Shown here in pieces: positions 25,401-27,972 of a stretch of 64,000 bases of DNA. The stretch is from Geodermatophilus sabuli (lineage in GTDB: Bacteria; Actinomycetota; Actinomycetes; Mycobacteriales; Geodermatophilaceae). The notes beneath the pieces are model-generated. The model saw nothing but the letters and a program-made list of their open reading frames with translations, was not told where the DNA came from and ran no database searches. The stretch's first letter is position 1. Every line of letters begins with the position of its first letter. The translations under genes and the position numbers were made by a program. The stretch spans positions 310,001 through 374,000 of the forward strand of contig NZ_OBDO01000001.1 in the NCBI RefSeq assembly GCF_900215145.1, written 5' to 3'.

Positions 25401-25444
25401 ACCTCCCACCTGCCGGTTCCCGCGGGAACCGGCAGCTGGGAGGT
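25401..25444. terminator. 44-bp near-perfect palindrome after selD
   Basis: ACCTCCCA (25401-25408) pairs with TGGGAGGT (25437-25444), and inside it CTGCCGGTTCCCG (25410-25422) pairs perfectly with CGGGAACCGGCAG (25423-25435). Only one C-C mismatch breaks the 44-bp stem. It ends at the selD stop, so it should terminate selD and insulate the MDR gene. The core matches palindromes at 54300 and 59652. Confidence 0.78.
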
Positions 25445-26451
25445 CAGCGGACGATGACGACGTGCTCCCCGCGGGGCACGAACTCGCCGATCACCGGCGC
25501 TCCCGGCACCTCGCCGCCCAGCAGCAGCCCGCCCGAGGTCTGCGCGTCCGCCAGCAGGAGGGCCTCGTCCTCGGAGACCGCGGACAGGTCGGTGTGCGGG
25601 CGCACCCAGTCGAGGTTGCGGCGGGTCCCGCCGGAGACGTGGCCGTCGGCCAGGGCCTCCCGCGCCCCGGCCAGGTAGGGGACGGCGGCGGCGTCGACCA
25701 CCGCGGTCACCCCGCTGGCGCGCGCCATCTTGTAGAGGTGGCCGAGCAGACCGAAGCCGGTGACGTCAGTGCCGGCCCGGATGCCCGCGGCGACCGCGGC
25801 CCGCCCGGCGTCCCGGTTGAGCGTGGTCATCGCGGCGACGGCCTCGTCGGAGACCTCGCCGGTCGCCTTCATCCGGCTGTTGAGCACGCCGACGCCGAGG
25901 GGCTTGGTCAGGGACAGCGGCGTCCCGGCGACGGCGCCGGAGTTGGTGATGAGCCGGTCGAGGTCGACAACACCGGTGACGGCCATCCCGTACTTCGGTT
26001 CGGGGTCGTCGATCGAGTGCCCGCCCCCCACGTGGCAGCCGGCCTCCTGGGCGACCTCCAGCCCGCCGCGCAGCACCTCCGCGGCGAGCTCGGCGGGCAG
26101 CACGTCCCGCGGCCAGCCGAGCAGGTTGACCGCGACGACCGGGGTGCCGCCCATCGCGTAGACGTCGGAGAGCGCGTTGGCCGCGGCGATCCGGCCGAAG
26201 GTGTACGCGTCGTCGACGACCGGGGTGAAGAAGTCGGTGGTGAGCACCAGACCCTGCCCGCCCGCGATGCGGACCACGGCTGCGTCGTCGCCGTCGTCCA
26301 GGCCGACGACGAGCTCGGCGGCGGGGTCGCGCGGCCCGGTGGCGGTCAGCCCGGCGACGACGGCCTCGAGCTCGCCGGGCGGGATCTTGCAGGCGCACCC
26401 ACCTCCGTGCGCGTACTGGGTGAGCCGGATGCGGGCGGGCGCGGTCGTCAC
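25444..26451 (-). CDS. selD: selenide, water dikinase (selenophosphate synthetase)
   Basis: Makes selenophosphate, the selenium donor for SelA. 335 residues. The catalytic region is GGGCACKIPP, with Cys19 and Lys22 at the positions of E. coli Cys17 and Lys20, so this SelD is the cysteine and not the selenocysteine form. Other marks are TDFFTPVVDDAYTFGRIAAANALSDVYAMGG and DVTGFGLLGHL. GTG 26451 lies 6 nt from TACGGT (26463-26458), so a leaderless message is likely. It is divergent from selC-selA-selB, which completes the pathway. Confidence 0.96.
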   Translation of the reverse strand: MTTAPARIRLTQYAHGGGCACKIPPGELEAVVAGLTATGPRDPAAELVVGLDDGDDAAVVRIAGGQGLVLTTDFFTPVVDDAYTFGRIAAANALSDVYAMGGTPVVAVNLLGWPRDVLPAELAAEVLRGGLEVAQEAGCHVGGGHSIDDPEPKYGMAVTGVVDLDRLITNSGAVAGTPLSLTKPLGVGVLNSRMKATGEVSDEAVAAMTTLNRDAGRAAVAAGIRAGTDVTGFGLLGHLYKMARASGVTAVVDAAAVPYLAGAREALADGHVSGGTRRNLDWVRPHTDLSAVSEDEALLLADAQTSGGLLLGGEVPGAPVIGEFVPRGEHVVIVR

Positions 26452-26514
26452 GGCCCGACCGTATCCCCGCGCCGACGGGGCCCGCGCCACCGCGTGGGCC
26501 TCCCGACCAGGGCC

Positions 26515-26527: not shown

Positions 26528-26623
26528 GGAGGCGTCAGGGCGCCTGGTGGCCCCCGCGGCCTCTAAAGCCGACGTGGCCGAGCAGCTCGGTCAGGCGGGT
26601 TCGATTCCCGTCCGCCTCCGCCA
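26528..26623 (+). tRNA. selC: tRNA-Sec with CUA anticodon (reads UAG)
   Basis: The acceptor strand GGAGGCG (26528-26534) pairs with CGCCTCC (26613-26619), followed by discriminator G and an encoded CCA (26621-26623). The T-arm GCGGG-TTCGATT-CCCGT (26595-26611) has the same G-T pair at its base as E. coli tRNA-Sec. The very long variable arm (26575-26582 with 26586-26593, 8 bp) is a tRNA-Sec hallmark. The anticodon loop 26561-26567 is CTCTAAA: after T33 comes CTA (26563-26565), not TCA. So this Sec-tRNA should read UAG. Odd points: the 8th acceptor pair is T-C, the D-stem has a C-C, and the anticodon stem seems to bulge A26572. selA and selB follow directly. Confidence 0.9.
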
Positions 26624-26661: not shown

Positions 26662-27972
26662 ATGAGCGCCGACCCGCGGCGGCAGGTGCCCCGCACCGAC
26701 ACGCTGCTCGCCGACCCCGAGCTCGCACCCGCCGTCGACCGGCTCGGTCGCGAGCTGGTCAAGTCCGCCGTCCAGGAGGTCCAGCAGCGGATCCGGGACG
26801 GCGAGGTCGGGCCCGGCGACGCCGTGGCCGCCGTCCTGGCCGGCCTGCCGCCGACGGCGAGCAGCCTGCGGCCGGTGCTCAACGCCACCGGTGTGCTGGT
26901 GCACACCAACCTCGGCCGGTCCCCGCTGTCCGCGGCCGCGGTCGCGGCGATCGCGGCGGCCGGCGGCACCACCGACGTCGAGCTCGACCTGGTCACCGGT
27001 CGCCGCGGCCCCCGCGGTGCGGCGGCGATCACCGCGCTGCTCGCCGCGGTGCCCGCGGCCCAGGCGGCGATCGTGGTCAACAACTGCGCCGCCGCGCTCG
27101 CCCTGGTGGCCACCGCGCTCGGCGGGGAGCTGGTCATCGCCCGCGGCGAGCTGGTCGAGATCGGCGACGGCTTCCGCATCCCCGAGCTGCTGGTGGCCAC
27201 CGGCGCCCGGCTGCGCGAGGTCGGGACGACGAACCGGGTGACCCTCGACGACTACCGCGACGCCCTGCACGAGGAGACCGGCGCGGTGCTGAAGGTGCAC
27301 CCGTCGAACTTCGTCGTCCGCGGGTTCACCCGGGCCGTGCCGGTGGCCGAGCTCGCCGCCGCGCTGTCGGGCAGTGGTGTCCCGCTGGTCGCCGACGTCG
27401 GCTCGGGGCTGCTGCGCCCGCACCCGGCGCTGCCGGACGAGCCGGACCTGCAGACCACCCTCGCCGACGGCGCCGACCTCGTGCTGGCCAGCGGCGACAA
27501 GCTGCTGGGCGGACCGCAGGCCGGGCTGGTGCTCGGCCGGGCCGACCTGGTGCAGCGGCTGCGCCGGCACCCGCTCTACCGCGCCCTGCGGGTCGACAAG
27601 ACGACACTGGCCGCCCTGGAGGCGACGCTGCGCGGACCGCTGCCGCCGGTGCAGGAGATGCTCGCCGCGGACCTCGCCGGGCTGCGCCGGCGGGCCGCGG
27701 CCCTCGCCGCCCGGCTCGCCGCGGCCGGGCTCGACGCGGTGGCCGTCGACTCCGAGGCCCGCGTCGGGGGTGGCGGGGCGCCGGAGCACCCGCTGCCGAG
27801 CGCAGCGGTCTCCCTGCCCGGCGACCTCGCTGAGCCGCTGCGCGCCGGGACGCCGCCGGTGGTCGGCTACGTCGCCGGGAACCGCACCCTGCTCGACCTG
27901 CGCAGCCTGCCGCCCGCGGCCGACGACGCGCTGGCCGGCGCGGTGCTGGCCGTCGCGGAGGACGCGGCGTGA
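26662..27972 (+). CDS. selA: L-seryl-tRNA(Sec) selenium transferase
   Basis: PLP enzyme converting seryl-tRNA-Sec to selenocysteinyl-tRNA-Sec. 436 residues, slightly shorter than E. coli SelA (463). It has the N-terminal tRNA-binding part, then [18 protein letters not shown] (73-90) and the PLP lysine Lys280 in [16 protein letters not shown] 26662 follows TACGCT (26648-26653) by 8 nt. It starts 38 nt after selC, and its stop overlaps the selB start (GTGA), so selC-selA-selB form one compact unit. Confidence 0.96.

Follow-up and report, generated by a model that had tools for sequence, protein, structure and literature searches.

The canonical selenocysteine (Sec) system is that of E. coli, with its selABCD genes, an in-frame UGA and a SECIS hairpin that in fdhF has the apical loop GGUCU. 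A UAG-decoding tRNA-Sec, together with 75Se labelling in Geodermatophilus and Blastococcus, was reportedly described by Mukai et al. 2016 (Angew. Chem. 55:5337, doi 10.1002/anie.201511657). Passages of PMC10778597 and PMC5133445 cite that work for UAG-Sec, and the section on CUA tRNA-Sec in the Secmarker paper of 2017 (PMC5330540) credits an earlier report and gives three Geodermatophilaceae genomes with this tRNA, with TAG in the genes for formate dehydrogenase (FDH), a UGSC protein and the AhpC of B. saxobsidens; that section mentions neither UCA relatives within the family nor any genome that has CUA and UCA together. The precedent in Geodermatophilaceae that an earlier note on this DNA had named is a real one. 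UAG-Sec in this family is already known, having been published in 2016, and as the code is established the locus described here adds a well-documented further case. It shares with the system of Mukai et al. 2016 the family, the anticodon and the TAG selenoproteins FDH and UGSC-motif protein, its genome being a further member, and it is like the Secmarker genomes in its CUA tRNA-Sec and its TAG at FDH and UGSC. The likeness to the canonical system lies in selA, selB, selC and selD and in an in-frame codon with a hairpin, the difference in that UAG replaces UGA and the anticodon is CUA. What is added is a near-complete survey of the family, sister genera with UCA, covariation in the SECIS and a relative with two anticodons, none of which was met in the literature searched, a search that did not cover the 2016 primary report.

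The window is the whole stretch of 64,000 nucleotides that was analysed (G000:C14:310001-374000), part of a 5.5-Mb genome in 25 contigs. A cmscan search of all of it gave one Rfam match, tRNA-Sec (RF01852) at 26528-26619 with 65.3 bits (E 4.7e-11), above the gathering score of 47 bits, and ARAGORN finds the same gene with the anticodon CTA at its position 36. The parts of the tRNA are:

26528..26623, forward strand: tRNA-Sec gene (selC), 96 nt, with G73 and an encoded CCA (RF01852, ARAGORN, fold)
26563-26565, forward strand: anticodon CTA (CUA), which reads UAG, in the loop CTCTAAA at 26561-26567 (sequence, ARAGORN)
26560:26568, forward strand: closing pair of the anticodon stem, C-G here and T-A in the UCA sister tRNAs (GGTCTTCAAAACC), from 33 CUA sequences against the UCA sequences of the family

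The discriminator G at 26620 and the CCA at 26621-26623 can be read directly, and RNAfold gives a variable arm of 8 bp and an acceptor/T stack of 7+6 = 13 bp. These marks and the Rfam score bear out the identity as tRNA-Sec put forward in the earlier note, and the anticodon CUA that it had read is confirmed from the letters and by ARAGORN. The bacterial tRNA-Sec of RF01852 usually have UCA, which this gene does not; CUA is a known variant and the anticodon does not exclude membership of the family, according to the Secmarker section (PMC5330540).

ARAGORN labels the gene tRNA-Pyl because of the anticodon CTA, and anticodon and label together are what would speak for a pyrrolysine tRNA. Such an identity can scarcely be credited, as no Rfam family but tRNA-Sec passes the threshold, the 8-bp variable arm and 13-bp stack do not match a tRNA-Pyl, which has a variable arm of 3 nt (PMC7609411), selA, selB and selD flank the gene, and the target TAGs are at Sec positions. 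Further RF01852 matches in the genome were considered as candidates for a second tRNA-Sec and rejected, being tRNA-Ser, tRNA-Leu and tRNA-Met, and the window gene is the sole tRNA-Sec of its genome. Chance and sequencing error are excluded as sources of the CUA because relatives hold 33 distinct CUA tRNA-Sec sequences. The CTCTAAA loop and the C-G closing pair are common to all 33, and since the pair is T-A in UCA tRNAs it has changed along with the anticodon.

The tRNA gene had been placed directly before selA-selB, in the company of SelD, and matches to TIGR00474, TIGR00475 and TIGR00476 uphold this arrangement, with a divergent selD upstream and selA-selB downstream of the tRNA:

25444..26490, reverse strand: selD, selenide water dikinase, Cys form (GGGCACK), TIGR00476 388 bits, divergent from tRNA-Sec
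26662..27972, forward strand: selA, L-seryl-tRNA(Sec) selenium transferase, TIGR00474 413 bits, PF03841
27969..29741, forward strand: selB, Sec-specific elongation factor with C-terminal winged helix, TIGR00475 277 bits, PF09107
29739..29741, forward strand: ordinary TAG stop of selB, at a place where 33/48 relatives have TGA and 15/48 have TAG

The two genes selA and selB overlap by 4 bases, and the window SelA has 88% identity to those known from Geodermatophilus sp. TF02-6 and from G. sabuli, which puts the genome in Geodermatophilus or very close to that genus. A CUA tRNA-Sec is found in the window together with selA, selB and selD, the combination that marks a UAG-Sec system.

The target genes are on contigs other than that of the window. 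The FDH gene was found by searching the genome for molybdopterin oxidoreductases, one of which has its frame broken by TAG, and downstream of it are an iron-sulphur subunit and then an NrfD-like subunit:

G000:C11:54001-57292, reverse strand: formate dehydrogenase alpha, NF041513, 1933 bits
G000:C11:56732-56734, reverse strand: in-frame TAG of FDH, codon 187, in the context ...GAIQIENQARI-TAG-HSATVPG
G000:C18:11385-11387: TAG of a UGSC-family gene (NF041046), at the U of UGSC

Codon 187 is the Sec position, going by what is established for FdhF and FdnG. Three UGSC paralogues without an in-frame stop are found in the same genome (G000:C14:940398-940835, C14:952353-952790 and C7:4716-5150), and the one of the three that was read, C7:4716-5150, has Cys. 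The TAG gene and its Cys paralogue make a natural Sec/Cys pair within one genome.

Across the family all 45 distinct FDH sites that were read directly have TAG, with neither TGA nor Cys at any, and in searches of 115 genomes the matches that span the Sec site carry one TAG in frame, except in G080. Both FDH alpha copies of that genome (on C12 and C4; L174, L182) are without the stretch around the Sec codon and look broken, and a CUA tRNA-Sec is present. Extra TGAs in the FDH frames of 8 family genomes were considered as a second Sec codon and rejected, all being terminal stops when read; the FDH stop itself is TGA in the relatives read. It might be supposed that the TAGs are nonsense mutations in decaying fdh and UGSC genes, with the CUA anticodon a coincidence or an error, as each is a lone TAG that breaks an otherwise open frame. 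Against this, some 100 genomes share TAG at one and the same Sec codon and keep the frame intact beyond it, no loss of purifying selection past the TAG is seen in the family, and CTA is the anticodon at 75 named loci, so that decay is a most improbable reading.

Both TAGs are followed by a hairpin, with a loop whose first base is nucleotide 22, the T of TAG being nucleotide 1, in FDH and UGSC alike, and the pentaloops GGUCU (FDH) and AGUCU (UGSC) are both of the form RGUYU. In 30 distinct FDH sequences 98.6% of the cells of the 7-bp stem are paired, and changes on both sides are seen at pair 18:30 (G-U, G-C, C-G) and at pair 21:27 (C-G, G-C), which are third codon positions. The observed pairing or covariation score was reached by 0/500 shuffles, and sliding the register of the stem lowers the paired fraction to 61% or less. 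On comparison of these sequences the hairpin covaries at silent positions.

The earlier note had asked for a search for in-frame TAG with a SECIS elsewhere in the genome, and such TAGs are there, at the Sec sites of FDH and UGSC. The pattern TAG-N14-SSSS-RGTYT-SSSS was fitted to these two sites, so other types of SECIS could escape it; it occurs at 3 places in the 5.5-Mb genome and has a complementary stem at FDH and UGSC only. The TGA version of the pattern also occurs 3 times, with a complementary stem in 0/3. As the pattern with such a stem follows only the two TAGs and no TGA, the selenoprotein genes of this genome use UAG and not UGA for the RGUYU type of SECIS, the opposite of what would have told against a UAG-decoding tRNA. 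A relaxed TAG+RGTYT pattern gave 21 sites, of which the 19 besides FDH and UGSC were rejected, with stems of 2 bp or less. Within the family all four pairs form in 56/56 matches to FDH or UGSC as against 4/49 others, the latter being close to chance.

A tRNA with the anticodon CUA could in principle read any UAG, and it could be proposed that the window tRNA is a general amber suppressor with UAG reassigned throughout the genome. This is very unlikely, as TAG closes 7 genes, selB among them, of the 73 that were crudely called in the window and in three stretches elsewhere, the stop of selB alternates between TAG and TGA at one site in relatives, and the tRNA-Sec fold with the conserved SelB and SECIS hairpins implies a context-dependent delivery. 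The exchange of stops in selB and the TAG-ended gene calls mean that UAG acts as an ordinary stop wherever no SECIS comes after it. The use of UAG is a SelB- and SECIS-directed, context-dependent recoding, not REASSIGNMENT. The earlier note was thus right that the genome also uses UAG as a stop, and its term codon reassignment does not hold, with UAG remaining a stop and Sec confined to UAGs before a SECIS.

The best explanation of the locus, and very probably the correct one, is a UAG-decoding tRNA-Sec with delivery by SelB and SECIS to the UAGs of FDH and UGSC, and with the switch of codon made within the family. The tRNA-Sec(CUA) would be charged with serine, which going by the protein families would be converted to Sec on the tRNA by SelA with selenophosphate from SelD. 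SelB would then bring the Sec-tRNA to a UAG 18 nt upstream of an RGUYU SECIS hairpin; the hairpin rests on comparison, and SelB binding and selenium insertion are expected from the families and from published relatives. The targets in its own genome would be codon 187 of FDH alpha and the UGSC-family protein, both TAGs being putatively translated as Sec, and the remaining UAGs would end genes. UAG would have taken over from UGA as the Sec codon within Geodermatophilaceae, on the branch that parts the cultured genera from three uncultured UCA genera.

A tRNA-Sec is present in 112/115 genomes of the family. CTA is found at 75/78 named Geodermatophilaceae selA loci, the other 3 having no tRNA in the available stretch, and the genera covered are Geodermatophilus, Blastococcus, Modestobacter, Klenkia, Goekera and Trujillonella. 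Three uncultured genera (codes g5, g6 and g7) have UCA, in the loop CTTCAAA with a T-A closing pair, and the body of this tRNA is almost identical to that with CUA, e.g. GGAGGCGTCAGGGTGCCTGGTGGCCCTCGCGGTCTTCAAAACCGACGTGG...; the genomes concerned are G067, G069-G071 and G073-G075 (L099-L104, L107, L132, L135, L256, L257). In a quick SelA tree, with SH-aLRT support and without bootstrap, all CUA rows fall on one side of a branch (SH-aLRT 99) and the UCA rows of the family and of actinobacterial plasmids on the other. The parsimonious reading is that a single switch from UCA to CUA took place, with a compensatory change in the stem. At a cut-off of E 1e-60 the UCA genera gave no FDH close to the query, and the stretches read near their sel loci hold no convincing UGA selenoprotein.

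In G110 on C255 (L130, L131) and in Blastococcus endophyticus (L080, L087) there is a pair of sel loci with some 59 kb between them. Each has its own CUA tRNA-Sec, selA, selB and selD, with SelA 84% and 81% identical to that of the window. A Blastococcus-like sel locus with a CUA tRNA is also found under the title Bacillus sp. AZ43 (L054, SPQJ01000003.1; unverified organism), a name that is probably wrong.

A further genome, G059, belongs to the same genus as the window and is 100% complete with 1% contamination. It has a CUA tRNA-Sec with selA-selB-selD on contig C11 and TAG in both FDH and UGSC, and on another contig are:

C17 (69,133 bp), L128:1169-1263, reverse strand: second tRNA-Sec, with UCA, whose 81.8 bits are the top score of the family
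C17, L128:1579-2157, forward strand: CMD/AhpD-like gene, TIGR01926 112.6 bits, NF041238

The body of the UCA tRNA differs from that of the CUA tRNA of the same genome. The AhpD-like gene is divergent from it at a distance of 315 bp and belongs by match to NF041238, a seleno-protein family named CFYUT. Its in-frame TGA (L128:1870-1872) takes the place of the second Cys of CxxC...H, an active-site residue, where 19/19 aligned homologues have Cys, and is followed by a 6-bp hairpin with the loop AGUUU, a loop shared by the UAG-UGSC gene of G054. Of the 3,527 TGA triplets that 10 stretches contain, no other has such a hairpin after it. It is probable, going by these features, that G059 uses two Sec codons.

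Contig C17 carries no second SelA, SelB or SelD, and only one SelB passes the threshold in G059. GC is 59-65% over the initial 6 kb of the contig, which lie between transposase-like genes; the rest agrees with the host in GC and tetranucleotides. Viral contigs gave no relatives of the AhpD-like gene and plasmids only distant ones, and the plasmid matches to the UCA tRNA are the tRNA-Sec of complete UGA-type sel-fdh cassettes. Complete selB-selA-tRNA-Sec(UCA)-selD-fdh cassettes are found on the Arthrobacter plasmid pYA7-1a (L248) and on Tsukamurella plasmid 17 (L249), one of these plasmids being conjugative. The presence of sel-fdh cassettes on actinobacterial plasmids makes UGA-Sec a mobile trait in the phylum. 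The region of the second tRNA-Sec in G059 is best explained as an acquired UGA-Sec cassette that would be served by the resident SelA and SelB, the assembly at IS elements being a main doubt. In the literature searched, to which the 2016 primary report did not belong, no bacterium is described as having CUA and UCA tRNA-Sec side by side.

The use of this group lies in comparison, as the near-identical UCA tRNA-Sec of the sister genera allows the switch to be pinned to a single branch and to few bases, those of the anticodon and the closing pair. It seems somewhat more probable than otherwise that the family holds the states before and after a switch of Sec codon plus a genome that uses two codons, in which UAG would serve FDH and UGSC through CUA, and UGA the AhpD-like gene through an acquired UCA tRNA on a low-GC, IS-flanked island, with one SelB and SECIS recognition shared. 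If true for G059, one SelB would serve two Sec codons, the genome would offer protein engineering a naturally occurring selenocysteine system with two codons, and it would show directly how the Sec codon can change by way of a period with both tRNAs.
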